The notes beneath the pieces are model-generated. The model saw only the letters and a list, made by a program, of their open reading frames with translations. It was not told where the DNA came from and ran no database searches. Positions 494 through 56,080 of a stretch of 64,000 nucleotides of DNA are shown piece by piece (position 1 is the stretch's first letter; every line of letters begins with the position of its first letter). This stretch comes from Lactiplantibacillus pentosus (GTDB lineage: Bacteria; Bacillota; Bacilli; Lactobacillales; Lactobacillaceae), in contig NZ_CP032757.1 of NCBI RefSeq assembly GCF_003641185.1, forward strand, positions 372,001 to 436,000, written 5' to 3'. Position numbers and translations under genes: made by a program.

Positions 494-790
494 CTGTTCG
501 TCAGCCGGTGATCTTCCTATTCCGACTTCCGGGGCCGGCTGACAACGCTGGAACAGGGCGGACATCGATTTGAACTCACGCAGAACCCCACTGCGCAATT
601 TCAAATACGAGTCTTCTTCTAGCCCGGGAACCCCACCCGAACAAGAAGAACTTCGCCCTTGAGCATTGTCCGCCGGCCCCTCCAGTCGGGAAGCCGCTCG
701 AATGGCGGATGAACAGCCGCCCATCTGGGTACAATTGGCCATTGAATAATTAGGAGACAGGTCCTTCGAGCAAACTTTGAATTGGCAATA
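494..790 (-). repeat. Dispersed structured repeat, subtype A, copy A1
   Basis: The core runs from CTGTTCGTCAGCC (494) to GGCGGATGAACAG (ending 716), which pair as the outermost stem. Inside are a GGGGCCGGC/GCCGGCCCC stem and two side hairpins: TTTGAA..CGCAG/CTGCG..TTCAAA and CTTCTT..CCGGG/CCCGGG..GAAGAAG. Further conserved sequence runs to about 790. Related copies lie near 17643, 27320, 32859, 36605, 46339 and 50721. A long open frame on the minus strand through this copy is judged not to be a gene. Confidence 0.85.
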
Positions 791-1065
791 AAACTCACCT
801 GGAATTTGCAGGTCAAGATTTTGTTGAGTGAATCTAATCGAAACTGCCTTGTTGGTAGATGACAGGATTACTGATTTCAAAGCATTAACGACTAGTTCAT
901 ATTTAGTCTGATTTGAAAACGTATCGAGTAAGGGATAATAATCTAGACACTCCTGTACTGACGGCACTAGACGATAGCCTAATGATTAAGAAAAAGTTTT
1001 AGACAAAACAAATCTGACAGTCAGATAACAGCTGTATGGTTTGATATGAATCAGTGATCAGTCTT

Positions 1066-1455
1066 TAAAAAAGTTGGGTCCGCACATGTCCGCCTTTCGA
1101 ATACCATCCCCGGTTGGAAGGCGTTTCTGACAATGCTCAGCGTTTTTCAGAGTGTGAGGTTCAGACGGGTTGGGACTGAGGATTAGCCTAGCTAGAGCGT
1201 TAAGCGGTGAATTTCCGCTTGGCGCTCTGGCGTAGCTAACCGGAAGTCCCATTCTGACCCGAACACGTTTCATCCATACTGCAGCTAACGTGGAAGACCA
1301 GTATTTAAGACGCGATTTGTCGGCTTAAATCTGTGTCCATCGCGTTCCAGCGTTGTCAGAAATGCCTGGAAGCCGGTGTAGGATGCATCTATCACAGAAA
1401 GTTTACGCCGATTTGCCCTATTTTCCAGCGGTTCTAAGCTGGCTGTACTTCAAAG
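1066..1455 (+). repeat. Dispersed structured repeat, subtype B, copy B1
   Basis: This ~390-bp element starts with AAAAAAGTTGGGTCCGCAC and ends near the CCAGC..GCTGG hairpin at about 1430-1450. The core stem is GCGTTTCTGACAA with TTGTCAGAAATGC. Side arms are a long hairpin built from TGGGACT, TTAGC, AGAGCG and AAGCGG with their complements, and an ACGCGAT..ATCGCGT stem. It is recognisably homologous to subtype A read on the opposite strand, for example the shared TTCCAGCGTTGTCAG. Confidence 0.8.
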
Positions 1456-1483
1456 GTCTACAGAATGTTAAGACTTTCTTACC

Positions 1484-1525
1484 TTGTCAGTAACTGTACT
1501 ATGCTGTACTATGTTGTTTAAACAA
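1484..1525 (+). promoter_or_regulatory. Promoter and candidate operator of the GntR/ABC operon
   Basis: TTGTCA (1484-1489) and TACTAT (1507-1512) are separated by 17 bases. The tandem decamer CTGTACTATG occurs twice (1494-1503 and 1504-1513) across the -10. A perfect palindrome TTGTTTAAACAA (1514-1525) lies just downstream. GntR/YtrA regulators commonly autoregulate, so either element may be the operator. That role is inferred. Confidence 0.6.
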
Positions 1526-1557
1526 AGCAGTCGTCGGATTGCAAATGGAGGTGGGCC

Positions 1558-1914
1558 ATGCAAATTGACCATGGGAGCAGGCAGCCGTATTATGCGCAGT
1601 TGGTAACCGGAATTGAACAAGATATCGCGCACGGGGTGTTGCAGCCTGGTGAACAGTTGCCGTCGGTGCGGGAGATGGCGCGCCAACATTTGCTCAATCC
1701 GAATACGGTCAGCAAGGCTTACAAGCAGTTGGAGGCGCAACAGATCATTCAGACGGTTCCGGGTAAGGGGACTTACGTGCAGGCCGCGGATTCAAGCTTG
1801 TTGCAAGCGGAATTGCGCGAACGGTTCACACAAATCGTCAAGCTAGCGTATCAGAGTGGGGTCAGTATCGCTGAACTCCACGACTGGCTGGATAAAACGG
1901 GGGAAATGTTATGA
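1558..1914 (+). CDS. GntR-family (YtrA-type) transcriptional regulator
   Basis: The 118-residue protein has an N-terminal winged helix (about residues 8-75) with the GntR signature LPSVREMARQHLLNPNTVSKAY and a wing at VPGKGTYV. The short C-terminal tail (residues 76-118) lacks the UTRA or FCD ligand domains of larger GntR proteins, as in the YtrA subfamily, whose members usually repress adjacent ABC transporter operons. A GGAGG precedes the ATG. The stop overlaps the start of the following ATPase gene (ATGA), indicating translational coupling. It probably represses its own operon through the sites just upstream. Confidence 0.9.
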   Translation: MQIDHGSRQPYYAQLVTGIEQDIAHGVLQPGEQLPSVREMARQHLLNPNTVSKAYKQLEAQQIIQTVPGKGTYVQAADSSLLQAELRERFTQIVKLAYQSGVSIAELHDWLDKTGEML

Positions 1915-2804
1915 GTTTAGTGATTAATCAGTTAAGCAAACAAATCGACCATCACCAGACGTTGGATGAGATTAGTTTTGAAATTGGCTTAGGACAAATC
2001 GTGGGCGTGGTCGGTCGTAACGGTGTCGGTAAGACGACGCTGTTTCGGACTATCAACGGTCAGTATCTCAGCGACCAGGGGACCGTCACAGTCGATGGTC
2101 AAAATGTGGCAACGCAACCAGCGTCTCGTACGCAGTTGTGCTTCATTGACCCATTGACGAATTTCTTCAAGGGCGCGACGATCAGACAAATTCAGTGGTA
2201 CTACCAAGCCGCTTATCCGGCCTTTGATAATGCCAAATTTGAGCAATTACTCGACCGTTATCAATTAACTTCTAAGCAAAAATTACGGCATTTCTCAAAG
2301 GGAACCTTTGGCTTATTTACCATCATTCTTAGCGTGGCGACGCAAGCACCATACCTCTTTCTCGATGAACCGCTAGATGGTTTGGACGTCCTGATTCGCA
2401 AGAATATTCTGGGCATCTTGATTGATGAAGTCGCAACCGGCGAGCGGTCGATCGTGATTGCGTCGCATAACTTGGTCGAACTAGAAGGCGTGATCGACCG
2501 GGCATTGATGTTGAAGCACGGGCAAATCGTCAACGATTATCAGTTGGAATCGATGCGGCATAATGCGCGCAAAGTTCAACTGGTCTACCGTGATAAGCAG
2601 ATTCCAGCGGTGATTAAGCAGTTGGGACACATCGTCCACGTGTCAGGGCGGGTAATCGTCGTCGTTTTCGAGAATTTCGACGAAGCGCTCCAGGCACAAT
2701 TGGCCGCGACTAAGCCAGTCTTTCAAGAAGAGTTACCACTCTCATTGGCTGACTTGTTCATGGCGAATTTGACGGACGAAGCGGACTTTGAATTATTATC
2801 TTAG
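1911..2804 (+). CDS. ABC transporter ATP-binding protein (YtrB-like)
   Basis: This is the nucleotide-binding subunit of an ABC system, 297 residues. Walker A is VGRNGVGKTTL (about 34-44) and Walker B is YLFLDEPLDGLD (about 145-156). The signature motif is degenerate: FSKGT stands where LSGGQ is expected, which is common in YtrB-type exporters paired with GntR regulators. A ~100-residue C-terminal extension follows the ATPase core. The gene overlaps the regulator by four bases and lies 11 bases before the permease gene, so the three form one operon. The substrate is unknown; peptide antibiotics or envelope stress are typical for the class. Confidence 0.88.
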   Translation: MSLVINQLSKQIDHHQTLDEISFEIGLGQIVGVVGRNGVGKTTLFRTINGQYLSDQGTVTVDGQNVATQPASRTQLCFIDPLTNFFKGATIRQIQWYYQAAYPAFDNAKFEQLLDRYQLTSKQKLRHFSKGTFGLFTIILSVATQAPYLFLDEPLDGLDVLIRKNILGILIDEVATGERSIVIASHNLVELEGVIDRALMLKHGQIVNDYQLESMRHNARKVQLVYRDKQIPAVIKQLGHIVHVSGRVIVVVFENFDEALQAQLAATKPVFQEELPLSLADLFMANLTDEADFELLS

Positions 2805-2815
2805 GGGGCGGGGAC

Positions 2816-3829
2816 ATGACCAAACGAACATTATGGCAGTTGTTGTGGCGGCACTATCGCGTCATTGTATTGACAGGAATAGTGGCTTTATTGCTGGCTG
2901 GTATTAAGGAAGGTTATAGTATCGTGCAGCGTCCGTCCTTATACATTGCGGTGAATGAGACCAGTTTTACATTGACCAGTGCGAACGGTATTCGAATGGG
3001 GCTGGTCGTCAGTATTTTAGTCAGCCTAGTCATAGGCGTCGTGCTATTTTTGAATGATAATTTTACAAACTTTGATCAGTATTTATTTAGCTTGCCAGTT
3101 CCGCGACGTCAGATCTATCGCCGCAAAATCGGTCTCCTGATTGGGACGGTGGTGAGTGCGTATGTCTTGGCAGAAGCGATTTATGGCTTGATTACTTGGC
3201 GGGTGCTGGTCAATCGGCATGTTGGGGTGAACTGGGTTGGCTCAATCTATGAGGAAGTTGAAATCTTAGCACTGATTATCACGCTAAGCCTAGTCGCGGC
3301 CACGTTTGGCTTGTGGGTCGGCCGCGTCTTTGCAAGTGCCCTGGCGACGTTCGTCTTCACTTGCAGTCTGCCGTTTGCCTACGATGGCTTGATCAACATT
3401 GTGGCTGGAGTGACTGGTCAGACTTATCGCCAAGCGGATATTTTAGGGACGTTGTCGAGTCAGCACCCCAGCGGTCTGTTAATTGTCCTGGTGATTTGTG
3501 GTGTCATTAGTGGGGGCCTCTACTGGCTCAACCAATGGGCGTTTGACCACTTATCGTTAGAAAATGGGCAGGACTTTTTCCGTTTCCCACAATTGCGCGG
3601 CGCTGTTCTGAGTTTTTCAATCGGCTATTTGATTATTGCCATCAGCTGTTCGCAATTTGGTGCTGGGATTGTTGGCTTACTGACCGATCATTATAAACCG
3701 CAATTACCGCTAGTTACTTTTATTCTATTGACGATTGCGGTCGCTTACCTCACTTGGAGTCTGGGGCGTTGGTTCTTATATCGACCGGACCGGTTCCGGG
3801 ATGCTTGGACGTTCAAGAAGCTGGCGTAA
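2816..3829 (+). CDS. ABC transporter permease, membrane subunit
   Basis: The 337-residue integral membrane protein has about six to seven hydrophobic segments, for example near residues 15-30, 58-80, 105-125, 145-170, 178-205, 220-240 and 270-330. It belongs with the preceding ATPase, 11 bases away, and has a GGGGG-rich ribosome binding site. Sequence similarity is too weak to name a substrate. It most likely forms the transmembrane half of an exporter with the YtrB-like ATPase. A strong terminator follows. Confidence 0.8.
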   Translation: MTKRTLWQLLWRHYRVIVLTGIVALLLAGIKEGYSIVQRPSLYIAVNETSFTLTSANGIRMGLVVSILVSLVIGVVLFLNDNFTNFDQYLFSLPVPRRQIYRRKIGLLIGTVVSAYVLAEAIYGLITWRVLVNRHVGVNWVGSIYEEVEILALIITLSLVAATFGLWVGRVFASALATFVFTCSLPFAYDGLINIVAGVTGQTYRQADILGTLSSQHPSGLLIVLVICGVISGGLYWLNQWAFDHLSLENGQDFFRFPQLRGAVLSFSIGYLIIAISCSQFGAGIVGLLTDHYKPQLPLVTFILLTIAVAYLTWSLGRWFLYRPDRFRDAWTFKKLA

Positions 3830-3851
3830 CAATTGAATCAGTTTGAACCTA

Positions 3852-3895
3852 AAACGTGCCCACTGAAGTGAAATGACTTCGGTGGGCACGTTTAT
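3852..3895 (+). terminator. Rho-independent terminator of the GntR/ABC operon
   Basis: AACGTGCCCACTGAAGT pairs with ACTTCGGTGGGCACGTT across a 6-base loop and is followed by TTTATT. The flanking A-rich side suggests it could also act on convergent transcription from the minus-strand gene. Confidence 0.85.
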
Positions 3896-3957
3896 TAGCG
3901 GCAGTTTGAATTCTCTTGGGTCTATTATCAGTGACCTGAATGAGTTATCTTATGAAG

Positions 3958-5328: not shown

Positions 5329-5356
5329 TAACGGTTCCCCCTATGCAAAAACCAAT

Positions 5357-5374
5357 TTGTTATTTCTTTCACAA
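5357..5374. promoter_or_regulatory. Rex-like operator 1 upstream of acdH
   Basis: TTGTTATTTCTTTCACAA has the 18-bp TTGT-N10-ACAA architecture of the redox repressor Rex. It lies just downstream of the predicted acdH -10, where a bound repressor would block initiation. A second copy occurs at 5517-5534. Confidence 0.7.
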
Positions 5375-5379
5375 CCATT

Positions 5380-7394: not shown

Positions 7395-7510
7395 GGGAAG
7401 CTAGCCAGAATGCCTGGAAGCCGGAGCAGGACGAATCCATGACTGCAGGTTTACATTAACTCGCTTTGTTTCCAGCGTTTCTAAGCTGGTTGATTTTGAA
7501 CTTAAGAACT
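7395..7510 (+). repeat. Truncated subtype B repeat, copy B2
   Basis: Only the 3' end of element B is present: GCCAGAATGCCTGGAAGCCG, then the CCAGCGTTTCTAAGCTGG hairpin and the AACTAGCAC tail. It matches the ends of copies near 18370-18480 and 36680-36760. Confidence 0.7.
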
Positions 7511-7537
7511 AGCACAGTGCTTGAAAACCACTCAACC

Positions 7538-11392: not shown

Positions 11393-11545
11393 TGGCCGTT
11401 AAACGGATGACTACTTTGAATGTCGATGACTTTTTATAAAATAGTGAGACAAATTAGTTATAAAAACGGTCAAAATATGGTAAAACTAAAGCATTCAGAT
11501 TTTCTGAGTATTAACCGGTCATCGTTCAATGGAAGGTGAGGTCGC

Positions 11546-11797
11546 ATGAAAGACAGCAAAGTAATTAAAGTAGATGATGGATTAGCCGTGACCATTCCAG
11601 CTGAAATGGCGAAACGGTTGCAGTTAACTGCTGGCAGTCAAGTTGAACTGGAACTGACAGCGGATCATAAATTGACGCTCACGCGGGCGCAAAAATCGCC
11701 GTTGACGCCGACTGATCCCAAGTACGTGGCGGCGGCTGAACATGCCATGCAGAAATACGGCAAAGCGCTGCAAATGTTGGCAGCGAGTGACCAATAA
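11546..11797 (+). CDS. AbrB/SpoVT-type (MazE-like) DNA-binding protein, copy 1
   Basis: The 83-residue protein has an N-terminal swapped-hairpin AbrB domain (about residues 3-50: KVIKVDDGLAVTIPAEMAKR, then LQLTAGSQVELEL) and a variable helical tail. Such proteins act as antitoxins or transition-state regulators. No toxin gene follows. A second copy with nearly the same first 50 residues lies 61 bases downstream, and the upstream TTTCTGAGTAT sequence is also duplicated, so a ~313-bp unit was tandemly duplicated. Confidence 0.85.
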   Translation: MKDSKVIKVDDGLAVTIPAEMAKRLQLTAGSQVELELTADHKLTLTRAQKSPLTPTDPKYVAAAEHAMQKYGKALQMLAASDQ

Positions 11798-11858
11798 GTT
11801 GTGGTAGCCGTTTTTTCTGAGTATCAAACGATTATCATCTAACGAAAGGTGTAGCAAC

Positions 11859-12113
11859 ATGAAAGACAGCAAAGTAATCAAAACAGATGATGGATTAGCC
11901 GTGACCATTCCAGCTGAAGTGGCGGAACGGTTGCAGTTAACTGCTGGTAGTCAAGTTGAATTGGAACTGACAGCGGATAATAAATTAGCGCTCACGCGGG
12001 CTGAAGAGCCGATAAAGAAAATGTCTGATTCCGAGTTCTGGGCAGCGGTGGCATATGCTAAAAAGAAGTATGCCAAAACGCTTCAAATGTTGGCAGAAAG
12101 TGATCGACAGTGA
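11859..12113 (+). CDS. AbrB/SpoVT-type (MazE-like) DNA-binding protein, copy 2
   Basis: The 84-residue paralogue differs from copy 1 mainly after residue 50. The AbrB domain is almost identical (KVIKTDDGLAVTIPAEVAER), while the tail has diverged (MSDSEFWAAVAYAKKKYAKT) and resembles toxin-binding helices of MazE-like antitoxins. Both copies end in a similar LQMLAxSD motif. It is probably cotranscribed with copy 1 and followed by a terminator. With no toxin in sight, the pair could be orphan antitoxins or regulators; heterodimer formation is possible. Confidence 0.85.
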   Translation: MKDSKVIKTDDGLAVTIPAEVAERLQLTAGSQVELELTADNKLALTRAEEPIKKMSDSEFWAAVAYAKKKYAKTLQMLAESDRQ

Positions 12114-17622: not shown

Positions 17623-17642
17623 ATGAACAGTTGTTTGGATTA

Positions 17643-17930
17643 CTGTTCGTCAGCAATGATCTCCTTAGTCCGACCTCCAGGGCTGGCTGACAACGCTGGA
17701 ACAGGGCGGACATCGATTTGAACTCACGCAGAAACCCACTGCGCAATTTCAAATACGAGTCTTCTTCTAGCCCGGGAACCCCACCCGGACAAGAAGAACT
17801 TTGCCCTTGAGCATTGTCCGCCAGCCCCTACAGTCGGGAACCCGTTCGAATGGCAGATGAACGGCCACCTATCTGGGTACAATTGACCACTGAATATTAG
17901 GTAACTGGTCTTTCAGGAATACCTTTCTGA
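17643..17930 (-). repeat. Subtype A structured repeat, copy A2
   Basis: Same architecture as the copy at 494. The GGCTGGC/GCCAGCC stem differs from GGCCGGC/GCCGGCC in copy A1 by a compensating base-pair change. A subtype B copy follows 250 bases later in the opposite sense, as at 494-1455. Confidence 0.85.
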
Positions 17931-18179
17931 ATCGTTATCGATGGTGAGTTATAGCATTTGTATACTGAGGCGCTTGTCTAAGTACTATTCCCTAATTTCC
18001 ATTCTTTGAGCATTCCGGACTTTTTTCATTTCAGGCGGCTAAAGATGATGCGACTCATGTTCTGGAATGTTACTGACTCCGAAAGCAAAACATGAGTATG
18101 CTGACTTGGCCATTTTCAGAGACAAGTCTTACAGTTAAATACCAAAATAACTGGTTTCTAAGAATCAACGACCAATTCA

Positions 18180-18475
18180 CAAAAAAGTTGGGTACGCACA
18201 TGTCTGCCTTTCGAATAGAATCCCGGCTGGAAGGTATTCTGGGCAAGGCCCAGTGGTGAAATTTCACTTAGCAAGCGTTTTGTGCTTGGTTAGTGAAAGA
18301 CCAGTATTTAAGACGTGGGCTGTCGGCTTAAATCTGTGTCCACCACGTTCCGGCCATTGCCCAGAATGCCTGAAAGCCGGCGTAGGACGATCCTAGCACT
18401 GCACGTTTACGCTAACTCGCTTTGTTTCCAGCGGTTCTCAGCTGGCTGCTTTTGACCTGAAGAACTGCCACGTTC
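18180..18475 (+). repeat. Subtype B structured repeat, copy B3
   Basis: It starts ACAAAAAAGTTGGGTACGCAC and ends with the CCAGCGGTTCTCAGCTGG hairpin. Core stem TTCTGGGCAA/TTGCCCAGAA replaces TTCTGACAA/TTGTCAGAA of copy B1, and ACGTGG/CCACGT replaces ACGCGAT/ATCGCGT, both with pairing kept. The central side arm is shorter, built from TTTCACT..AGTGAAA. Confidence 0.85.
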
Positions 18476-27182: not shown

Positions 27183-27318
27183 CGTGTCTAACCCCCTTAG
27201 TTAATGTTCCCTCATCATAGCACTTTTTGGGCCAAAGACGCCATTATAAGTCATTATTCAGCTGGTTTGGTAAGTGTGTTATGACTACGCGGATGAACGA
27301 ACGGTGTGGGGGTGGATT

Positions 27319-27610
27319 GTTGTTCGTCAGCCGGGGCGCTTCATACTCCGACCTCTGGGGCTGGCTGACAATTGCTGGAACAGAGCGGACATCGATTTGA
27401 ACTCACGCAGAAGCCCACTGCGCAATTTCAAATACGAGTCTTCTTCTAGCCCGGGAAAACCACCCGGACAAGAAGAATTTCGCCCTTGAGCATTGTCAGC
27501 CAGCCCCGCCGGTCGGGAACCCGCTCGAATGGCAGATGAACGACCACCTAATTAGGTACAATTGGCCATTAAATGATAGAAGACTGGTTCTTTGTGTAAA
27601 CTTTGAATCA
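27319..27610 (-). repeat. Subtype A structured repeat, copy A3
   Basis: The full core is present. The main stem GGGGCTGGCTGACAA/TTGTCAGCCAGCCCC is perfectly paired in this copy. No subtype B partner follows; the RelB-like gene starts 210 bases later. Confidence 0.85.
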
Positions 27611-27823
27611 GAATCGCTAATGATATATGTCAGTTAAATACTAAGAAAATTATTGGCTAACTCAATGTGGATTGTCATTCACAGGTAGATAACAGCATTG
27701 CTATTTGAGTCCAATTCAAGATTTTGAACTCAAGAACAATTATCTATCCCCAATGGTAAATAATAACGGCCGCAACGTGGTTATTATATAATCAAGGTAT
27801 TAACAGAGAGAGGGATGGTTGGC

Positions 27824-32794: not shown

Positions 32795-33015
32795 TGAAAG
32801 TGCCAATTTTCAAAAACCGCCAGCTTAGGCCCGCTGGGAAAGAGCCCGAGTTGGATTGCTGTTCGTCAGTGGAGGCGCGCCCGATTCCGACCTCCGAGGC
32901 TGGCTGACAACGCTGGAACAGGGCAGACCTTGATTTGAACTCACGCAGAAGTTCACTGCGTAAGTTCAAATACGAGTCTTCTTCTAGCCTGGGAGCCCCA
33001 CCCGGACAAGCCGAA
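32795..33015 (-). repeat. Truncated A repeat joined to an inverted B end (copy A4)
   Basis: 32795-32845 resembles the reverse of a subtype B end (CAGCTTAGGCCCGCTGG). From 32859 a subtype A element starts but loses homology after CACCCGGACAAG near 33010, so one outer arm is missing. The inner hairpin CACGCAG..CTGCGTA is re-paired compared with other copies (CGCAG..CTGCGC). Confidence 0.7.
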
Positions 33016-33261
33016 CCACAGTTAAGTTTGGAAACCGACCAATCGGCCGAATCGACCACGGAAGTTAATTATATTAAGTTAATCTTGTGGGTTACTGCAT
33101 AAAAGCTGGAAAATTCATTAAGATAATGATGATTTTAAAGTTGAACCGTTTTCATGGATTGACGTTATTGGGATCCAGCAGTAAAGTTATCACCACATAA
33201 ATTAAAGAATGATGAGACGTTACATAATATTCTTAATAATTAAAACATGGAGGTTCAGCTT

Positions 33262-34645: not shown

Positions 34646-34739
34646 CGCACTGATCCGTTAATGGAGCCGCGTCATGATGTCAGTAGTACGCTGGTAAGTG
34701 TGTCGTCGACTACCATGCTGCCCGTTGCGACAGTACTAA

Positions 34740-34955
34740 ACCAACGTGCACTGGTTTGCAGTAATCCGTAGCTAAGTCACGTGCACCTGTTTACATCAAT
34801 CCGTAGCTAAGTCACGTGCACCTGTTTACATCAATCCATAGCAAAACCAACGTGCACTTGTTTTCAACAATCCGTAGCTAAGTCACGTACACCTGTTTGC
34901 AGCAATCCGTAGCTAAGTCACGTAAACTTGGTTGTAGCAATTCATGGCTAAACGG
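34740..34955. repeat. Tandem array of six imperfect 35-36 bp repeats
   Basis: The phrase ACGTGCAC (or variants) recurs at 34744, 34779, 34814, 34850, 34885 and 34920, followed in each unit by CTGTTT.CA..AATCCGTAGCTAAGTC. The whole unit is conserved and nothing behaves as a variable spacer, so it is a minisatellite and not a CRISPR array. Confidence 0.88.
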
Positions 34956-36579: not shown

Positions 36580-36604
36580 GGACGAACAGTTTGTTATTTA
36601 AATT

Positions 36605-36758
36605 GCTGTTCGTCAGCGGGGGACGCGTCCTGGTCCGATCTACGAGGCTGGCCGACAACGCTGGAACAGGGCGCAACCGTACTGCAAGTTCACGCTAATT
36701 CACTTTATTTCCAGCGGGTCTCAGCTGGCAGTCTTTGAACTGAAAAACTAGCACGCGT
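36605..36758. repeat. Hybrid of the A start and B end (copies A5/B4)
   Basis: The first 60 bases (CTGTTCGTCAGC..GGCTGGCCGACAACGCTGG) are subtype A. From about 36665 the sequence is the end of subtype B (ACTGCAAGTTCACGC, then CCAGCGGGTCTCAGCTGG and AACTAGCAC). It looks like the scar of a deletion between an A and a B element. Confidence 0.7.
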
Positions 36759-36924
36759 TAATCATCATTTTTGACAACTAACTAACAAAATGCGCGCCGG
36801 ATTATCTTTGACTAGTGCGCAATCGAGTTTGACACTCTTTTAAAATAATTCTAAACTGAAGGTGACGTGTAAAAGCGCCACCATTTTTAATTTAGTAACT
36901 TTAACGATATAAGGGGATGTCAAG

Positions 36925-42864: not shown

Positions 42865-43045
42865 GCGTATCAAGCTTCGGTGGGCAGTCAGTGAAGCTAA
42901 TACAATCGGATGATAAGAGCGTGTCAAGCTTTAGTGGGTAGCCAGTGAAGCTAATACAATCGAATGATAAGAGCGTATCAAGCTTCAGTGGGTAGCCAGT
43001 GAAGCTAGTACAATCGGATGACAAGAGTGTATCGAGCTTTAGCGA
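42865..43045. repeat. Tandem 54-bp repeats (about 3.3 units)
   Basis: TCAAGCTT recurs at 42870, 42924 and 42978, with a variant at 43032, giving an exact 54-base period. Each unit contains an AGCTTCA..TGAAGCT hairpin and AATCGGATGATAAGAG. Because 54 is a multiple of three, an open frame appears on the minus strand, but it is not considered a gene. Confidence 0.85.
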
Positions 43046-45614: not shown

Positions 45615-45756
45615 GGAGGTCCTCCTCGTAATCGTAATGGGGTGTTAGAAGCATGGTTCATTTAATAAATACGGTAATTCGCTGGATTTCCGTTAAAAAA
45701 GTACAAGTTAATACGCGTTGTGGTAGTTAATCTGTCATGAGTCATGATTAAAACGT

Positions 45757-46027
45757 GCCAGTTTCTAAATTCAAGTGCTGCCAGCTGAGACCTGCTAGAA
45801 ACAGTGCGAGTCAGCGTAAAATTGCCATTGTAGAGACGTCCTACGCCAGAACGCCCAGTGGAAGTTCACCGCTTAACGCTCCGGCTAGGCCAATCCTCAG
45901 CCCCAACCCGTCTAAACCTGACATTCTGAAAGTCACTGGGCCTTGCCCAGAATGCCTTCCAGCCTGGATGGTATTCGAAAGGCAGACATATGCGGACCCA
46001 ACTTTTGAAGAGTTGGTCGTTGACGTT
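45757..46027 (-). repeat. Subtype B structured repeat, copy B5 (inverted)
   Basis: This is the reverse complement of element B: it starts with the GCCAGCTGAGACCTGCTAG end hairpin and finishes GCGGACCCAACTTTTGAAGAG. Core stem TTCTGAAAGTCACTGGGCCTT... has diverged and pairs with GCCCAGAATGCC only partly. Confidence 0.75.
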
Positions 46028-46094
46028 TAGTAAACAGTCATTTTGACACTTAGATGTAAAACTGGCCGTCAATAAGCACCTACTCGTATTGGCG

Positions 46095-46565
46095 AAACCT
46101 CAATATTACTGAAAGGGGCATGGATTTTCTTTAGTCGTCCAATAAAGCAAAGGCTTGAAGGCTAAATGAAAATCAATACTATTAGCCTAATCTCAAGAGT
46201 AATTACTATTAGAAAATAATCTTCAGGCAATCCTACTGGTACACGAATACCACAAATCATCACTGTTGTTGATTCAAAATTTACATGAAGGACCAGTCTC
46301 ACAAAATTCAATGGTCAATTGCACCAAGATAAGTGGTCGTTTATCTGCCATTCGAGCGGTTTCCCGACTGTAGGGGCCGGCTGACAATGCTCAAGGGCGA
46401 AGTTCTTCTTGTCCGGGTGGTCTTCCCGGGCTAGAAGAAGACTCGTATTTGAAATTGCGCAGTGGGCTTCTGCGTGAGTTCAAATCGATGTCCGCCCTGT
46501 TCCAGCGTTGTCAGCCAGCCCCGGAGGTCGGACTAAGACGCGCACCGGCTGACGAACAGGAATCA
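46095..46565 (+). repeat. Extended subtype A repeat, copy A6 (left arm of a long inverted repeat)
   Basis: The core 46339-46559 is subtype A in the opposite orientation to other copies. The preceding ~240 bases (from CTCAATATTACTGAAAGG) match the reverse complement of 50945-51185 at roughly 90% identity by eye. Together the two copies form an inverted repeat of about 470 bp around the genes at 46724-50649. Confidence 0.85.
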
Positions 46566-46723
46566 TCCAACGACATGTTTCAACTCCATATGAAACCACA
46601 AAAGTTACAATCAGTTGCGATTTTGGGTGCGTATTACTATGATTTTGGACGGAGTATGCTACGATTAAATACATAGATAATCAGGAAGTTATCATGATTA
46701 AAGCTGGGCACTGGGAGGTACTT

Positions 46724-48250
46724 ATGCAGACATTAATACAGACATTTATGGATCGGCAGAGTGATTTACTCACTGCGTTGTGGCAACACTTGGGGATTTC
46801 TTTGGCCGCGCTAGTCATTGCAATGGTGATTGCGATTCCGTTGGCCATTTGGGTCGTTCGCCGACCACGGTGGGCCGAGGGGTTGTTGCAACTGACCAGT
46901 GTTTTGCAGACCATTCCGTCGCTGGCACTATTGGGATTGCTGATTCCGCTAGTCGGTATTGGCACGGTGCCCGCGGTGATTGCGCTAGTGATTTACGCGT
47001 TGTTACCAATTTTTCAAAATACTTACTTAGGGATCTCAGAGATCGACGCGTCAATTGAAGAGGCGGCCGATGCATTTGGGATGTCTCGGATGCGCAAGTT
47101 GTTCAAAGTTGAACTGCCGATTGCCTTGCCACAAATCATTGCCGGGATTCGGACCGCCTTAGTGCTCATTATCGGGACGGCGACGTTAGCGGCTTTGATT
47201 GGCGCTGGGGGTCTAGGGACGTTTATCATGCTTGGGATTGACCGTAATGATACGTCGTTGCTGTTGATTGGGGCCATTTCGTCAGCGCTATTGGCGATTC
47301 TGTTGAGTGCACTTGTGCGCTGGTTCCAGACGGCCAAGCCCCGCCATGCGCTGATTGTGTTCGTGGGTATTTTGGCGTTACTCGGTGGTGGTGGCGCGTA
47401 CAGCGTTTACGCCAATCGAGTTGAAACAATTACAATTGCAGGTAAACTCGGTTCGGAGCCTGACATCTTGATCAATATGTACAAACAGTTGATTGAGGCT
47501 GAAGACGACCACATCCACGTGACCTTGAAACCGAACTTTGGTAAGACGACCTTCTTATTCAGTGCTCTGAAGAATAATCAGATCGACATTTACCCAGAAT
47601 TCACTGGTTCCGTATTGGAAACTTTGGTGAAGGGCAATAATCCGGCCAGTCAAACGGCTAATCAGACTTATCAGTTAGCCAAAAAGCGGCTAGCTAAGCA
47701 GGAACAGATGACTTACTTGAAGCCGATGCAGTACAACAATACGTACGCCCTGGCCGTCACTAAGAAGTTCCAACAAGAACACCATTTGAAGACCATCAGC
47801 GATTTAACACAAGTCGAATCAATCCTCAAACCAGGGATGACACTTGAATTCATTGACCGCGATGATGGCTTGAAGGGAATCAAGAAGACGTATGGCTTGG
47901 ACGTCACGGCCAAATCGATGGAACCGGCGTTGCGCTATGAAGCGATTAGCAAGGGGAAGATCAATCTGGTGGACGCCTACGCAACGGATAGTGAATTGCG
48001 ACAATACAACTTGGCGCTGCTGAAGGATGATAAGCACTTCTTCCCGACGTATCAAGGGGCGCCACTCATGAAGACCAGCTTTGCTAACAAGCACCCGAAA
48101 GTCGTCCAAGCATTGAATAAGTTAGCTGGTAAGATTTCTGAAACCGATATGCAAGAGATGAACTATGAAGTCAACGTCAAAAAGAAATCGGCTTCCACAG
48201 TCGCACATAACTATCTCGTCAAACACGGCTTGTTAAAGGAGGGACGCTAA
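46724..48250 (+). CDS. Osmoprotectant ABC transporter, fused permease and substrate-binding protein
   Basis: The 508-residue fusion has an N-terminal permease (about 1-235) with an EAA-type loop (SIEEAADAFGMSRMRKLFKV) and a C-terminal OpuAC/ProX-type binding domain (about 240-508). The latter starts ITIAGKLGSEPDILINMYKQ and is tethered on the outer membrane face. Such fusions (BusAB/OpuCB-C, ChoS types) import glycine betaine, carnitine or choline under osmotic stress. ATG 46724 is chosen, with GGAGG nearby, rather than ATG 46694. Its stop overlaps the ATPase start. Confidence 0.92.
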   Translation: MQTLIQTFMDRQSDLLTALWQHLGISLAALVIAMVIAIPLAIWVVRRPRWAEGLLQLTSVLQTIPSLALLGLLIPLVGIGTVPAVIALVIYALLPIFQNTYLGISEIDASIEEAADAFGMSRMRKLFKVELPIALPQIIAGIRTALVLIIGTATLAALIGAGGLGTFIMLGIDRNDTSLLLIGAISSALLAILLSALVRWFQTAKPRHALIVFVGILALLGGGGAYSVYANRVETITIAGKLGSEPDILINMYKQLIEAEDDHIHVTLKPNFGKTTFLFSALKNNQIDIYPEFTGSVLETLVKGNNPASQTANQTYQLAKKRLAKQEQMTYLKPMQYNNTYALAVTKKFQQEHHLKTISDLTQVESILKPGMTLEFIDRDDGLKGIKKTYGLDVTAKSMEPALRYEAISKGKINLVDAYATDSELRQYNLALLKDDKHFFPTYQGAPLMKTSFANKHPKVVQALNKLAGKISETDMQEMNYEVNVKKKSASTVAHNYLVKHGLLKEGR

Positions 48251-49221
48251 TGACAACGGCAATTGAATTTCAGCACGTCCAAAAAGACTTTAATGGGCAA
48301 ACCGTGATTCCCGATTTGAATCTAACGGTCGATCAGGGTGAACTGTTCGTCCTAGTAGGCACCTCTGGCAGTGGCAAGACGACGTCGCTTAAAATGATCA
48401 ATCGTTTGGAACCCTTAACGGCCGGAAAAATACTGGTCAACGGGGCCGACACCACCACGGTACCGGTACGCGATTTACGGTGGCAGATGGGGTACGTCTT
48501 GCAACAAATCGCCCTCTTTCCAACCATGACGGTGGCACAAAACATCGCAGTGATTCCCGAAATGAAGGGGACGGCGAAGAAGACCATCAATCAAACGATT
48601 GACGAGTTATTGACGGAAGTCGGCCTGGACCCCCAAGAATACCGCGACCGGATGCCATCAGAATTATCCGGTGGTGAACAACAGCGAATCGGTATTTTGC
48701 GGGCAATCGCAGCGCAACCCGATATTGTGTTGATGGATGAACCGTTCAGTGCGCTGGACCCAATTTCGCGGCAACAATTACAAGATCTAGTCCTGGGACT
48801 ACATGCGCGCTATCATAATACGATCGTCTTTGTGACCCATGATATGAACGAGGCGCTCAAATTAGGCGACCGCATTGGGGTCATGCAACATGGACAGCTC
48901 GTCCAAGTCGACACACCAACGGCACTGGCCCAACATCCGGTCAATGACTTCGTGCGGGACTTCTTCGGTGCGAGTCGTGCGAAAAACGTGTATGACGTTT
49001 ACGTGGGCCGCGTCGGGCTCGTCCAAGGCTATCTCAAAACTGCGCCGGACGTGGCGGATGGCCGTATTCAGTCACTAGATATTCAGGCGACGCTGCGGAC
49101 GGCCTTTACCGCCTTTACCGACCATGATTACTTGGCGGTCACGGAAGATGATCACGTGGTGGGTTACCTGGACCGACAACGAGTCGTCGCTTATCTGAGT
49201 CAGCATGAAGAAGTGTCTTAG
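48250..49221 (+). CDS. Osmoprotectant ABC transporter, ATPase with CBS region
   Basis: The 323-residue ATPase has Walker A GTSGSGKTT, signature LSGGEQQR, Walker B IVLMDEPFSALD and switch H in VTHD. The last ~70 residues (IQSLDIQATLRTAFTAFTDH, then LAVTEDDHVVGYLDRQRV) form a single CBS-like module, the ionic-strength sensor of OpuA-type systems. It partners the fused permease/binding protein encoded just upstream with a one-base overlap. Carnitine, choline or betaine uptake is the likely function. Confidence 0.93.
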   Translation: MTTAIEFQHVQKDFNGQTVIPDLNLTVDQGELFVLVGTSGSGKTTSLKMINRLEPLTAGKILVNGADTTTVPVRDLRWQMGYVLQQIALFPTMTVAQNIAVIPEMKGTAKKTINQTIDELLTEVGLDPQEYRDRMPSELSGGEQQRIGILRAIAAQPDIVLMDEPFSALDPISRQQLQDLVLGLHARYHNTIVFVTHDMNEALKLGDRIGVMQHGQLVQVDTPTALAQHPVNDFVRDFFGASRAKNVYDVYVGRVGLVQGYLKTAPDVADGRIQSLDIQATLRTAFTAFTDHDYLAVTEDDHVVGYLDRQRVVAYLSQHEEVS

Positions 49222-49317
49222 TCGTCAACTAGCCCGGATTGCTTTAGACTAGGGGCTAGCTTAGTGAACAATAATTTGATCATGAGAATTTAAGAGTCAA
49301 TTGAGGAGGTCTCAGTA

Positions 49318-50649
49318 ATGACAGAACAGTATGATGTCGTTGTAATTGGTGGTGGCCCGGCTGGTAACGCGATGGCAAGCGGCTTACAGGCGCAAGGTAA
49401 GTCGGTGCTGATCGTTGAAGCTGATTTATGGGGTGGCACTTGTCCGAACCGCGGGTGTGACCCGAAAAAGATCTTGTTGAGCGCCGTTGAAGCCCAACAG
49501 GCAGCCCAACATCTCCAGCATCAAGGCTTAACAGGAACACCGACGATTGATTGGCCGGCCCTGATGGCGCATAAACGAGGCTATACCGATGGCATTAATG
49601 ATGGCACGCTCAAGGGGCTGCAGCACCAAGGCATCGCGACTTTACATGGCCAGGCCCATTTTCAAAATGATGGCCAGTTAGCAGTCGGTGACCAAGTCGT
49701 AAGTGCGACGGATTACGTGATTGCGACCGGACAGCGCCCAGCGATTTTGCCGATTACCGGGCAGGAATATTTCAAGACTAGTACGGACTTTTTAGACTTA
49801 GATGAGATGCCTAAGCGCGTGACTTTCGTGGGTGGGGGCTATGTTGGCTTCGAACTGGCAGCAATTGCGAATGCTGCCGGCGCCGATGTCCATGTGATTC
49901 ATCATAATGACCGGCCACTCAAAGCCTTCGATGCGGACCTCGTCCAAGATTTGATGGCGGCCATGACTGCGGACGGTGTTACTTTTGACTTGAACACGGA
50001 CCTCCAAGCCATCGAACAGACCGACGCCGGCCTACGATTGACGGCACCTGACTTTGAGCTGACGACGGACCTCGTGATTAGTTCGGCGGGCCGGATTCCG
50101 AATGCGGACCAGTTAGGACTTGAAAACGTCGGTGTCACGTTTAACCGTCACGGGATTCAAGTGAACGATCGACTGCAGACGGCTAATCCGCATATTTACG
50201 CGATTGGTGATGTGAGCGATACGCCCGTGCCTAAGTTAACGCCAGTAGCGGGTTACGAAGCGCGCTACTTGGTCCAGCAACTGACCCATCCGGAAGCGGC
50301 AATCACGTATCCCGTCATCCCGACCCAAGTCTTTGCGGCACCTAAGCTGGCGCAAGTGGGCCTTAGTGCGACGGATGCGGCTGACCAGCCGGATAAATAT
50401 CGCGTGAATACGCTGGATATGACCAAATGGTTCTCTTATTACCGTTTTGGCGCACAACAAGCACAGGCCAAGGTCATTATTGATCAGACTAGCGGGCAAG
50501 TCGTCGGTGCGACACTGTTGAGTGATGTCGCGGATGAAATGATCAATTACCTGACGTTACTGATTGAAAAACATGTCACGTTAGCCCAATTACAGCAACT
50601 CGTATTAGCCTACCCAACACCAGCCAGTGACCTGCAGTATCTGTACTAG
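49318..50649 (+). CDS. FAD-dependent disulfide reductase (glutathione reductase-like)
   Basis: The 443-residue flavoprotein has an FAD motif GGGPAGNAMA, the redox pair Cys42/Cys47 in GGTCPNRGCDPKK, a second Rossmann motif VGGGYVGFELA and YAIGDVSD. The GGTCPNRGCDPKK form is like glutathione reductases of lactobacilli. At the C-terminus, where most family members have the catalytic HPTxxE, this protein reads YPTPASD, so the active-site histidine is replaced. Substrate specificity is therefore uncertain. GAGGAGG precedes the ATG. It may be cotranscribed with the transporter or read from its own promoter. Confidence 0.85.
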   Translation: MTEQYDVVVIGGGPAGNAMASGLQAQGKSVLIVEADLWGGTCPNRGCDPKKILLSAVEAQQAAQHLQHQGLTGTPTIDWPALMAHKRGYTDGINDGTLKGLQHQGIATLHGQAHFQNDGQLAVGDQVVSATDYVIATGQRPAILPITGQEYFKTSTDFLDLDEMPKRVTFVGGGYVGFELAAIANAAGADVHVIHHNDRPLKAFDADLVQDLMAAMTADGVTFDLNTDLQAIEQTDAGLRLTAPDFELTTDLVISSAGRIPNADQLGLENVGVTFNRHGIQVNDRLQTANPHIYAIGDVSDTPVPKLTPVAGYEARYLVQQLTHPEAAITYPVIPTQVFAAPKLAQVGLSATDAADQPDKYRVNTLDMTKWFSYYRFGAQQAQAKVIIDQTSGQVVGATLLSDVADEMINYLTLLIEKHVTLAQLQQLVLAYPTPASDLQYLY

Positions 50650-50714
50650 CTAGCGAGAACTGGCAACTGGTTGAAAAAATAGGTATGAATTATGATTAAA
50701 ATGAGTTAGTTAGT

Positions 50715-51185
50715 GGATTCCTGTTCGTCTGCCGGTGCGCGCCTTATTCCGACTTCCGGGGCCGGCTGACAACGCTGGAACAGGGCGGACATCGATTTGA
50801 ACTCACGCAGAAACCCACTGCGCAATTTCAAATACGAGTCTTCTTCTAGCCCGGGAACCCCACCCGGACAAGAAGAATTTCGCCCTTGAGCATTGTCAGC
50901 CAGCCCCTCCAGTCGGGAAAACGCTCGAATGGCGGATGAACGACCACCTATCTGGGTACAATTGACCACTGGATTTCGGGAGACTGGTCCTTCATGCAAA
51001 CTTTGAATCAACAACAGTGGTGATTTATGGGATTCGTGTACCAGTAGAATTGTCTGAAGATTGCTTTCTAATTCCATAGTAATTACTCTTGAGATTAGGC
51101 TATAGTATTGATTTTCGGTTAGCCTTCAAGACTTTACCCTATTGGACGACTAAATAAAATTCATACCCCTTCCAGTAATATTGAA
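50715..51185 (-). repeat. Extended subtype A repeat, copy A7 (right arm of a long inverted repeat)
   Basis: The core 50721-50942 is a complete A element; 50943-51185 continues the homology with the inverted copy at 46095-46565. The main stem reads GGGGCCGGCTGACAA against TTGTCAGCCAGCCCC. Confidence 0.85.
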
Positions 51186-51191
51186 CATTCA

Positions 51192-51236
51192 AAACGTTGT
51201 GACAAGAACTAATTCTTCCTGTCACAACGTTTTTTT
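51192..51236 (+). terminator. Rho-independent terminator
   Basis: AAACGTTGTGACA pairs with TGTCACAACGTTT, followed by T7. It abuts the end of the A7 repeat, with no gene immediately upstream. Confidence 0.85.
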
Positions 51237-53157
<1,921 letters not shown>

Positions 53158-53171
53158 AGGAGGACAACAAC

Positions 53172-55001
53172 ATGGCATTTTCAGCAACGACGCGTCAACA
53201 AAATATTGAGCGCTTACAAAATGAAACGTTAGATCTATTAGTAATTGGTGGTGGTATCACCGGTGCCGGAGTCGCTATTCAAGCAACGGCCATGAACATG
53301 AAGACCGGTCTGATCGACATGCAAGACTTCGCTGAAGGAACGTCGTCACGGTCGACCAAGCTCGTCCACGGTGGGATTCGTTATCTGAAGACTTTTGATG
53401 TGGGGGTTGTCGCCGATACAGTTAAGGAACGGGCAGTCGTTCAAGGTATCGCGCCCCACATTCCTAAGCCCGACCCAATGTTACTCCCCATCTATAATGA
53501 GACGGGTGCGACTTTTGACCTCTTTTCAGTCAAAGTGGCGATGGATCTCTATGACAAGTTAGCGGAAGTCAAAGATCCAAAATTCACCAACTACACGCTT
53601 TCTAAGGAAGAAGTCTTACAACGCGAACCCCAACTGAGTCCGAAAAACTTAGTCGGTGGTGGCGTCTACCTTGACTTCCGAAACAACGATGCCCGTTTGG
53701 TAATTGAAAACATCAAGAAGGCTCATGAAAATGGCGGTATCATGGCCAGTCATGTCAAGGCCACTGGGTTATTACATGACGATGACGGCCATATCAACGG
53801 GATTACCGCTGAAGACTTGTTCACCGGCGAAACCTTTGAAATTCATGCCCGGGTCGTCATCAACACGACTGGCCCTTGGTCCGACACGATTCGGAAGATG
53901 GACCATGGTGAAACTTATCAATCACAGATGCGCCCAACTAAAGGGGTCCACTTGGTAGTCGATGCTGAAAAACTGCCGGTGCCACAACCAACCTACTTTG
54001 ATTCAGGCGACCAAGATGGCCGGATGATTTTCGTGGTACCACGTGAGAACAAGACTTACTTCGGGACGACCGATACTGATTATCACGGTGACTTGGAACA
54101 TCCAACGGTGACCCAAGAAGATGTTGATTACCTGCTTGAAATCGTGAACCGGCGCTACCCAACGGCGAAGATTACCTTAGATGATATTGAAGCAAGCTGG
54201 GCTGGGTTACGGCCATTGATCGCCGCTAATGGGAGTTCAGACTACAACGGTGGTAATTCTGGCAAAATCAGCGACAAGAGTTTCAAAGAAGTCATCAAAG
54301 TAGTCGACCAATTTGAAAATCAAGAAGCGAGCCGTGAAGATGTTGAGAGCGTGCTGAATGACCTCGAAAGTTCGCTGGCTGAAGACAAGTTAAGTCCATC
54401 GGCGGTATCACGGGGTAGTTCATTAACCAGTAGTCCGGATGGCCTGTTAACGTTGGCCGGTGGTAAGATTACCGATTACCGTAAAATGGCCGCGGGTGCC
54501 ATGGCGTTGGTCGCCAAAATTCTGGCGGACAAGTTTGATGCCCACTTTAACGAAATCAATTCTAAGAATCTCCCGGTCTCTGGTGGCGATATTGATCCGC
54601 ACAACGTTGATGCGACGATTGCCTTTTACGCAAAACAGGGGACGGATAACGGATTGACCAATGATGAAGCGCTACGGATTGCGAACATGTATGGCTCCAA
54701 TGCGGCTCGGGTCTTCAGTCTGATTGGTAAGGTCGAACCGACACACGGGCTGAGTTTAGCTGAAACGATTAGCCTTCGTTACGCCTTGGATGAAGAAATG
54801 ACGTTGACACCGGTTGATTATCTACTTCGGCGTACGAATCACTTACTCTTCATGCGTGACACGCTGGATGACCTGAAAGACGGTGTCATTGCGACGATGG
54901 CTGACTATCTCGGCTGGGATGCCGCAACGACGAAGGAACAAACGGATCGTTTGAACCAAACGATTGCTGAATCGGACTTAACGGCACTCAAGCAGGGCTA
55001 A
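53172..55001 (+). CDS. glpD: Glycerol-3-phosphate dehydrogenase/oxidase (FAD)
   Basis: The 609-residue flavoprotein oxidises glycerol 3-phosphate to dihydroxyacetone phosphate. LVIGGGITGAGVAIQATAMN is the FAD motif, and GTSSRSTKLVHGGIRYL is the GlpD/GlpO hallmark. An inserted segment around 375-425 (acidic, Ser-rich) is typical of the alpha-glycerophosphate oxidases of lactobacilli and streptococci that pass electrons to oxygen giving peroxide, so GlpO is an alternative name. ATG 53172 is chosen, with GAGGAGG; the frame extends upstream into glpK. Confidence 0.96.
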   Translation: MAFSATTRQQNIERLQNETLDLLVIGGGITGAGVAIQATAMNMKTGLIDMQDFAEGTSSRSTKLVHGGIRYLKTFDVGVVADTVKERAVVQGIAPHIPKPDPMLLPIYNETGATFDLFSVKVAMDLYDKLAEVKDPKFTNYTLSKEEVLQREPQLSPKNLVGGGVYLDFRNNDARLVIENIKKAHENGGIMASHVKATGLLHDDDGHINGITAEDLFTGETFEIHARVVINTTGPWSDTIRKMDHGETYQSQMRPTKGVHLVVDAEKLPVPQPTYFDSGDQDGRMIFVVPRENKTYFGTTDTDYHGDLEHPTVTQEDVDYLLEIVNRRYPTAKITLDDIEASWAGLRPLIAANGSSDYNGGNSGKISDKSFKEVIKVVDQFENQEASREDVESVLNDLESSLAEDKLSPSAVSRGSSLTSSPDGLLTLAGGKITDYRKMAAGAMALVAKILADKFDAHFNEINSKNLPVSGGDIDPHNVDATIAFYAKQGTDNGLTNDEALRIANMYGSNAARVFSLIGKVEPTHGLSLAETISLRYALDEEMTLTPVDYLLRRTNHLLFMRDTLDDLKDGVIATMADYLGWDAATTKEQTDRLNQTIAESDLTALKQG

Positions 55002-55018
55002 AGAATGGGGTGGTCATG

Positions 55019-55738
55019 ATGAAAGATCCATTAGCATTACAATTATTGGGGGAATTTCTCGGGACCTTTATCTTGATTCTATTAGGTGATGGGGTCGTTG
55101 CTGGGGTAACCCTCAACAAATCTAAAGCGCAAAATGCGGGCTGGGTCGCGATTACCTTAGGCTGGGGTTTTGCCGTCACGATGGGCGTCTATGCGTCCAG
55201 CTTCATGAGCCCGGCACACTTGAATCCCGCCGTTTCGTTAGGTATGGCGGTTGCGGGCAAGTTTCCATGGGCATACGTCTTGCCCTATAGTGCCGCTCAA
55301 ATTGCCGGTGGGATCGTTGGTGGCCTGGCAGTCTGGCTACACTACTACCCACATTGGCAAGCCACAAAGGACGCCGGCGCCATTCTCGGAATCTTCTCGA
55401 CTGGCCCTGGTATTCGGCAATATTTCTGGAACTTCATCAGTGAAGTGATTGGAACCTTTGTCCTAGTTTTCGGCTTGTTAGCCTTCACGAAAGGCCAGTT
55501 CACCGCGGGTTTGAATCCAATCGTCGTCGGAATTCTGATCATTGCGATTGGGTTGTCACTCGGTGGAACGACCGGGTACGCCATCAATCCAGCGCGGGAC
55601 TTGGGACCACGGATTGCGCATGCCGTCTTACCAATCGCGAATAAAGGCACTTCTGATTGGGCCTACAGTTGGGTGCCGATTGCTGGACCATTGGTTGGTG
55701 GTGCGTTAGGTGCACTGTTGTTTAATGTATTGCCATAA
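55019..55738 (+). CDS. glpF: Glycerol facilitator (aquaglyceroporin)
   Basis: The 239-residue MIP channel has six helices and two NPA boxes: HLNPAVSLG after helix 2 and INPARDLG near the end, the second in the aquaglyceroporin form with Asp. The start is ATG 55019 (or the adjacent ATG 55016), with GGGGTGG upstream. Third gene of glpKDF, 17 bases after glpD. It passes glycerol (and possibly lactic acid or water, as reported for lactobacillus homologues). Confidence 0.95.
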   Translation: MKDPLALQLLGEFLGTFILILLGDGVVAGVTLNKSKAQNAGWVAITLGWGFAVTMGVYASSFMSPAHLNPAVSLGMAVAGKFPWAYVLPYSAAQIAGGIVGGLAVWLHYYPHWQATKDAGAILGIFSTGPGIRQYFWNFISEVIGTFVLVFGLLAFTKGQFTAGLNPIVVGILIIAIGLSLGGTTGYAINPARDLGPRIAHAVLPIANKGTSDWAYSWVPIAGPLVGGALGALLFNVLP

Positions 55739-55757
55739 TTTTAGGACTGATTTGATA

Positions 55758-55806
55758 TAAACCGTGATTACTGTTGGAATTAGCAACGGTAACCACGGTT
55801 TTATTT
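55758..55806 (+). terminator. Terminator of glpKDF
   Basis: AACCGTGATTACTGTTG pairs with CAACGGTAACCACGGTT (some G-T pairs) and is followed by TTATTT. Confidence 0.8.
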
Positions 55807-55840
55807 GTGGGTAACGATTGAAATGGTTAAAATATGTCAA

Positions 55841-56080
55841 TTCTTAAAATCAAAGCAGCCAGCTGAGGCCCGCTGGAAACAGTGCAGGATCGTGTAAAAT
55901 TGCAGTGGGAGAGGCAGCCTATACCGGCTGACAGGCATTTCTGACAGTGGTGGGCACAGAGTTAAGCCGATAGCCCGCGTCTTAAATTCTGGCATTCCAT
56001 GCTAGCTGCAGTAGGGATGAAACGTGTTCGGGTCAGACTGGGACTTCCGGTTAGGCCAATCTTCTGTGGGCAATTAAAGG
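55841..56080 (-). repeat. Truncated subtype B repeat, copy B6 (inverted)
   Basis: It begins with the B end hairpin GCCAGCTGAGGCCCGCTGG and runs through TTCTGACAG and the GTGTTCGGGTCAGACTGGGA arm, stopping near GGTTAGGCCAAT. The start half of the element is missing and the AT-rich genes begin soon after, so this is probably an insertion breakpoint. Confidence 0.75.

Follow-up and report, generated by a model that had tools for sequence, protein, structure and literature searches.

A probable foldback-type family of gene-free elements with covarying, folded arms in Lactiplantibacillus pentosus

In Lactiplantibacillus pentosus, a 64,000-nucleotide (nt) stretch of contig NZ_CP032757.1 (positions 372,001 to 436,000; hereafter the window, in whose own numbering coordinates are given) carries dispersed copies of a structured intergenic element. 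The initial annotation of this DNA listed 13 copies of two types, A and B, took them for a superfamily of separate elements under selection for structure, and proposed that they were non-coding RNAs or, alternatively, a non-autonomous mobile element. Every one of these copies was recovered by our repeat search of the window (A in rows D1, D6, D7, I1-I5, I13 and I14; B in rows D3, D8 and I6-I12). Nevertheless, A and B are the two arms of one unit, and their separation into two families was wrong. We consider it probable that these units form a foldback-type family of non-autonomous, gene-free DNA elements, in which the folded arm DNA is read and kept paired.

Using the A and B sequences as queries, we obtained 60 loci in the L. 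pentosus genome. Under strict criteria, 55 of them have A and B in this order on one strand, a nearly constant distance apart, and 48 of these are distinct; among the remaining five, L047 and L042 hold parts of both halves, L009 and L023 hold A alone, and L044 holds B alone. When reverse-complemented, the B half aligns to A across the arm; the B arm repeats the A arm in inverted orientation and has diverged from it. R1, a covariance model trained on 17 5' arms, matched 88 5' arms with 132-176 bits in 91 sources from the same genome as well as 46 3' arms, read from the opposite strand, with 75-114 bits (both counted by hand from the score table), while 3' arms with a long additional hairpin scored lower, at 20-60 bits. 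Since the 3' arms are copies of the arm module, M, on the opposite strand and B aligns inverted to A, the unit reads M, spacer, inverted M; with a terminal repeat at either side and a spacer of ~320 nt, it measures 0.8-1.1 kb. The 47 spacers measured range from 238 to 348 nt and fall into one single-linkage component; the existence of several unrelated spacer types was thus rejected. An origin in a known coding or insertion sequence (IS) family, which the initial annotation had named as the explanation that would undo its own, was likewise rejected, as three open reading frames (ORFs) across the element have no Pfam match.

Arm M folds as a three-way junction of 51 pairs. Window positions 480-1440 fold at -345.5 kcal/mol, whereas 20 dinucleotide shuffles average -279.3 (standard deviation 6.5; z -10.2), and the opposite strand gives a z of -7.3. 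The stems described initially were read in the sequence: for A, GGCCGGC/GCCGGCC at 531-680 and GGCTGGC/GCCAGCC at 17679-17828; for B, TTCTGACAA/TTGTCAGAA and ACGCGAT/ATCGCGT in the first unit, and TTCTGGGCAA/TTGCCCAGAA and ACGTGG/CCACGT in the unit at 17.6-18.5 kb. In a MAFFT alignment of 17 arms, 32 of the 51 pairs change on both sides. A covariation test had been proposed; a second set, of 37 arms taken from 26 relatives and fitted to the model, shares one arm (L186) with the training set of R1, and in it 45 of the 51 pairs change on both sides and 97.2% of the cells are paired. None of 500 shuffles reached any of the measures in either set, and pairing drops to 33-49% when the structure is slid along the arms. 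Of 230 distinct arms with at least 38 of the 51 Watson-Crick pairs, 221 keep a single A.A mismatch, which lies within CTAAG/CTAAG, and 229 keep a one-base bulge whose letter can be any; the adjoining pair is A-U in 131 and G-C in 82. Together, the covariation and the kept mismatch and bulge strongly support selection on structure, as had been claimed.

Alignment of the flanks revealed terminal inverted repeats starting with CGC(A/G)TTGTGCTAGTTA at both ends. With at most one mismatch, this end pattern occurs at 77 places genome-wide, whereas the reversed pattern occurs at none. The two-ended units comprise 30 rows, in which two units are doubled, that is, 28 units of 801-1071 nt. The 9-mers flanking them match at seven or more of the nine positions in 11 of the 28 units (11 of 30 rows), compared with 32 of 1928 control pairs made of flanks taken from different rows; examples of the duplication are TAGAGGACA (L040), TTAATAAGA (L059) and TAGTTATTA (L017, shifted by one base). 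The site of L024 is without the element in the related genomes G011 and G015, as found by BLAST, and its flanks align across the junction with moderate similarity; by alignment, the gap between the ammonium-transporter and lactate-dehydrogenase genes is without it in the relatives G007, G011 and G015. The ends and the 9-bp duplication therefore indicate a non-autonomous DNA element, and the mobile alternative of the initial annotation is upheld by the terminal repeats, the target duplications and the empty sites.

The nearest genome, G016, is ~94% identical across 5.4 kb, and nine sites hold the element or a remnant of it in both genomes. Six sites agree in orientation (0.4, 7.4, 27.3, 32.9, 36.6 and 45.7 kb of the window) and the other three (L024, 17.6 kb and 50.7 kb) are inverted, with a partial copy in G016 at 17.6 kb and at L024; the site at 55.8 kb and L029, where G016 has no element, lie outside this comparison. 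No orthologue of the L. pentosus loci turned up in 180 kb of contig C12 of G016. For the first unit of the window, the left flank is 98%, the spacer 95% and the 5' arm 85% identical to G016; the 5' arm has switched stem type en bloc, and on the 3' side a different middle hairpin has taken the place of the former (61% of 38 aligned bases, with 110 gaps). Based on these inversions and the en bloc change of an arm, copy exchange and flipping seem to continue in units already inserted; the inversions are less likely to stem from independent insertions at one site. Judged by the longest flanking ORFs, 93 loci lie between tandem (51), convergent (23) or divergent (6) genes, with 13 undetermined. Convergent and divergent gene borders are equal in number on a circular chromosome; promoter regions thus seem to be avoided.

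In the 3.67-Mb L. pentosus genome, a 45-base arm-core pattern with up to three mismatches occurs at 128 places (69 forward, 59 reverse; the reversed pattern at none), which, if all copies were full length, would amount to at most ~3% of the genome. Among 100 arm-core places listed, 39 lay in known loci, and 40 of the other 61 were added to the sample of arms. A plain DNA search detected the element in 6 of 21 genomes of the genus. The R1 search detected it in at least 16 of these 21 and, throughout the family, in at least 96 of 397 Lactobacillaceae genomes and at least 14 of 40 genera; these counts are lower bounds, as scoring was limited to at most seven candidates per genome under strict filters. 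Ten genomes of the genus that were blank in the DNA search (G010, G004 and G001 among them) carry diverged arms according to the covariance model, so DNA similarity understates the spread of the element within the genus. A 29-base pattern, which samples only some arm types, matched 31 stretches in the genomes of named species, every one labelled Lactobacillaceae; they belong to Lacticaseibacillus, Schleiferilactobacillus, Levilactobacillus, Companilactobacillus, Limosilactobacillus, Lactiplantibacillus fabifermentans and metagenome-assembled genomes labelled Lactobacillus. Full or partial copies were found in ten plasmid records, seven from Ligilactobacillus salivarius and three from Lactiplantibacillus plantarum.

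Among 26 loci of relatives (L185-L210), taken from 26 genomes of which 21 are outside the genus, nine have a strong second arm, inverted and inward in all nine, and 16 have one arm. A phage origin was rejected: window positions 487-760 had no match in 50,697 phage records, and neither of two exact patterns was found in viral contigs. Recently moved copies were suspected in G144, where arms are 94-99% alike to the L242 copy, but these were dismissed as the likeness extends across only ~200-220 nt; in one of these cases, L203, the flanking ORFs encode an oxidoreductase and a GGDEF protein. A literature search yielded no description of the element in lactobacilli; most subscription papers were outside its coverage, and unpublished status is not implied.

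The proposal of non-coding RNA was not supported, although it may still hold for a structure needed on both strands. G.U and A.C cells were compared in the arms and in 30 RNase P RNAs from Lactobacillaceae with one pipeline (MAFFT and RNAalifold), an orientation check motif being present in 25 of the 30 RNase P sequences. RNase P RNAs show 6.6% G.U and 0.4% A.C, compared with 0.9% and 2.2% in 93 arms from other genomes, 0.6% and 2.0% in 127 L. pentosus arms, and 0.6% and 1.3% in all 220 arms together. A second count gave 23 G.U and 72 A.C cells in 77 L. pentosus arms and 49 and 72 in 92 others, or, as pair states, 16 and 25 in the former and 26 and 27 in the latter; one position that is nearly invariant as G.U was excluded from the wobble counts. 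On the M strand the G.U to A.C ratio is 0.3-0.5 and on the other strand 2.1-3.5, as against 16 for RNase P; tolerance of G.U far above A.C, as for a structured RNA, thus fails on the M strand and falls well below the RNase P value on the other. When whole units were folded, the plus strand was better in 27 of 48, with a mean difference of -2.5 kcal/mol (standard deviation 14.6). The scarcity of wobble pairs and the equal folding of the strands therefore favour folded DNA, or a structure of both strands, over an RNA of one strand; an ordinary one-strand RNA is disfavoured for the M strand and, to a lesser degree, for its complement. As the initial annotation had suggested, Rfam was searched with covariance models, and no Rfam 15 family matched the element: at gathering scores the window gave only a T-box (RF00230, 62869-63122, plus strand, 112.8 bits), and five element loci at E values up to 1 gave three matches, all far below gathering scores.

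In the foldback-type reading that we prefer, the unit would insert into intergenic sites with a 9-bp target duplication, the step to which the ends, the duplication and the empty sites attest, through a transposase of the 9-bp-duplicating type presumably supplied in trans. Each arm would fold, as single-stranded or cruciform DNA, into the three-way junction with its fixed A.A mismatch and one-base bulge, and a protein, or a repair or recombination step, that reads the folded arm may keep the pairs strictly Watson-Crick. The arms would also be recombination substrates, exchanged between copies at fixed sites while whole units flip; this outcome is seen in the comparison with G016, and recombination between arms or between ends is the putative cause of inversion. 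A broader proposition, which we regard as doubtful at present, is that the family represents a class of bacterial mobile elements in which selection acts on, and conserves, folded DNA itself: the inward-facing pair of arms, each a three-way junction whose mismatch and bulge are fixed and whose pairs are strictly Watson-Crick, would be read by a host or trans-acting protein that spreads and flips the units, and would have been kept in at least 14 genera of one bacterial family.

Several observations weigh against the foldback-type reading. In the fixed-offset test, 17 of the 28 two-ended units are without a duplication, and decay or exchange between copies is therefore needed to account for them; one of these, L049, has a 15-bp direct repeat at another offset, found by eye. 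Eleven stretches of the L. pentosus genome with isolated or widely spaced end matches were read, in a search that was not exhaustive, and no transposase with the ends of the element was found; in three of the 11 (L213, L217 and L220) the end matches hold no element. Moreover, neither of the two transposase families tested, PF00872 and PF01797, tracks the element across genomes, and why an insertion that makes a target duplication should need folding is left unexplained by this reading. As for the arms, many 5' arms also match R1 weakly on the opposite strand (20-34 bits), and one of the relatives' 26 loci, L205, has a weak second arm on the same strand (26.7 bits). A.C cells exceed G.U cells ~1.5 to 3.5 fold, a weak hint at an RNA from the other strand; at the position excluded from the wobble counts, all 17 arms of one set and 34 of 35 in the other have G.U; and the symmetric wobble counts are compatible with an RNA folded from both strands. 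The mismatch, bulge and wobble counts use arms passing the above pair threshold or having the GCTGGAAC motif, and badly decayed arms are consequently outside them.

Three rival explanations compete with this reading. According to one, which we hold to be unlikely, the arms act as RNA in both orientations: a read-through transcript would contain one M in sense and one in antisense, serving, for instance, as processing sites, stabilisers of mRNA 3' ends or attenuators, with wobble tolerated on neither strand. The symmetric pair-state counts fit this proposal, the kept mismatch and bulge look like recognition, divergent promoter regions seem to be avoided (6 of the 93 loci), and passages of one report describe transcripts of miniature inverted-repeat transposable elements (MITEs) with stable folds (PMC10969869). 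Nevertheless, selfish elements too survive mainly downstream of genes, and the copy number and the 9-bp duplications require a DNA mechanism in any case. A structured non-coding RNA family made from one strand, be it either, seems more improbable still. The covariation is very strong, the surplus of A.C on the M strand reads as a surplus of G.U on its complement, and one G.U position is nearly invariant, all as such a family would have it; yet the G.U to A.C ratios stay far from that of RNase P on both strands, folding energy is without strand bias, Rfam matches of the five loci are few and weak, and each unit has two inverted copies.

The third rival, to which we give an equally small chance, dispenses with selection on structure, and pairing would arise from mutation alone, by quasi-palindrome correction or hairpin-templated repair, together with gene conversion. 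This would suit the en bloc change of type in the arms of the first unit, as well as the strict Watson-Crick pairs with few intermediates. However, neither the A.A mismatch nor the bulge should outlast templated correction, yet both are kept almost throughout while the adjoining pair varies; conversion moves variants and creates no new paired stems; and R1 matches extend to 14 genera.

The foldback-type element shares traits with known systems. MITEs are usually smaller. Passages of PMC10969869 characterise them by terminal inverted repeats, a short target duplication, intergenic location, many copies, and the lack of any gene and of their own transposase. The present element is similar in its terminal inverted repeats, 9-bp duplication (in 11 of 28 units), intergenic location, many copies and lack of a transposase gene, and it differs in its size of 0.8-1.1 kb, its two homologous inward arms and the covarying three-way junctions found in 14 genera; a matching autonomous element was not found in the 11 stretches read. 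Repetitive extragenic palindromes (REPs) are far below 150 nt in size, whereas the arms are ~150 nt, and to our knowledge Y1 transposition makes no target duplication, unlike the 9-bp duplications seen here. In REP doublets forming hairpins (REPINs), inverted REPs linked to REP-associated tyrosine transposases (RAYTs) are extragenic, have a spacer and are predicted to fold as single-stranded DNA or mRNA (PMC3116915); two other sources treat bulge recognition (PMC8266576) and long persistence (PMC8049555). The element resembles REPINs as an inverted doublet with a spacer, an imperfect palindrome with a bulge and a long-lived within-genome population; it differs in its three-way junction, terminal repeats and target duplication, and RAYT (Y1 transposase, PF01797) was not found in 6 of the 16 element-bearing genomes of the genus. 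By analogy, the element would insert like a MITE while being an inverted doublet with a bulged palindrome like a REPIN. Long modular inverted repeats form most of the eukaryotic FB foldback transposons, as they do here; the present element is bacterial, however, with covarying folded arms conserved across genera.

Covariation is usually taken as a mark of RNA. This element, short of the wobble pairs shown by RNase P RNA, may instead exemplify selection acting naturally on folded DNA, and the ratio of G.U to A.C relative to a known RNA offers a simple test usable by others. Given the arm exchange and the flipping in place, the element may influence rearrangement as well as the 3' ends of genes. 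A concrete target for searches is the enzyme that reads it; none that would mobilise the element was found among the candidates below. The existence of an autonomous copy was rejected, since the 11 stretches contain ordinary units, partial units or no element, with no transposase between two ends. An IS256-type transposase was discarded as well: it is flanked by ends of another sequence (AGCGTAAAATATCTTGTG), and genomes that carry the units yet gave no PF00872 match include G007, G015 and G016. RAYT was dismissed on six carriers of the genus, namely G001, G004, G007, G010, G011 and G015, each of which has R1 hits and no PF01797 match; the L. pentosus genome has two such matches. An IS256-type element lies near an end-like match on the second L. 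pentosus contig (L213, 2563-3863), with a 386-aa ORF, PF00872 and 24-bp ends, and has two equally scoring places on this 49-kb contig.

The window holds two full units and one nearly full unit on the minus strand, the other sites being shortened or decayed. Unit 1 (433..1445, plus strand; outer limits approximate) consists of a degenerate terminal repeat, ACGCATTGTG, near 433, the end stem P0, the 5' arm (531..680, plus; R1 172.4 bits) with its three-way junction, the spacer (748..1066, plus), the 3' arm (1220..1367, minus; R1 33.4 bits on that strand), which is an inverted M of the long-hairpin form, and P0'. Unit 2 (17630..18475, plus), whose counterpart in G016 is an inverted remnant, has its 5' arm at 17679..17828 (plus; 170.1 bits) and its 3' arm, M on the opposite strand, at 18232..18371 (minus; 98.7 bits). 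In the nearly full unit (45713..46571, minus), the terminal repeat TTGTGGTAGTTA lies at 45718 and the 5' arm at 46373-46522 (171.1 bits). A unit with the 5' arm only is located at 27307..27629 (plus; arm 27357-27507, 168.6 bits), a decayed 5' half at 32846..33112 (plus; arm 32896-33042, 82 bits) and a 5' half unit at 50708..51184 (plus; arm 50758-50907, 172.8 bits), where G016 has a full inverted unit at the same site. The repeat search further located a 3'-end remnant at 7395..7515 (plus), a mini-unit at 36593..36776 (plus) that is mostly both ends with the arms deleted, and a 3'-half remnant at 55841..56080 (minus).

The genes at 46694-50649, encoding an ATP-binding cassette (ABC) permease/substrate-binding protein and an ABC ATPase, agree in order, and are similar in annotation, with the neighbours of the element on the Ligilactobacillus salivarius plasmids (L072, L075 and L076), and an NAD(P)/FAD oxidoreductase gene is also matched in L072 and L076; by annotation and gene order, it is as if this operon had moved along with a truncated element. 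Other repeats in the window are five overlapping direct copies with a period of 35-36 nt at 34703-34949 (plus; D2), downstream of a lactate-dehydrogenase-like gene and a small ORF, a direct duplication of 189 nt at 11500-12001 (D4; 87% alike, starts 313 nt apart), and a 54-nt tandem repeat in three copies, 89% alike, at 42865-43042 (D5).

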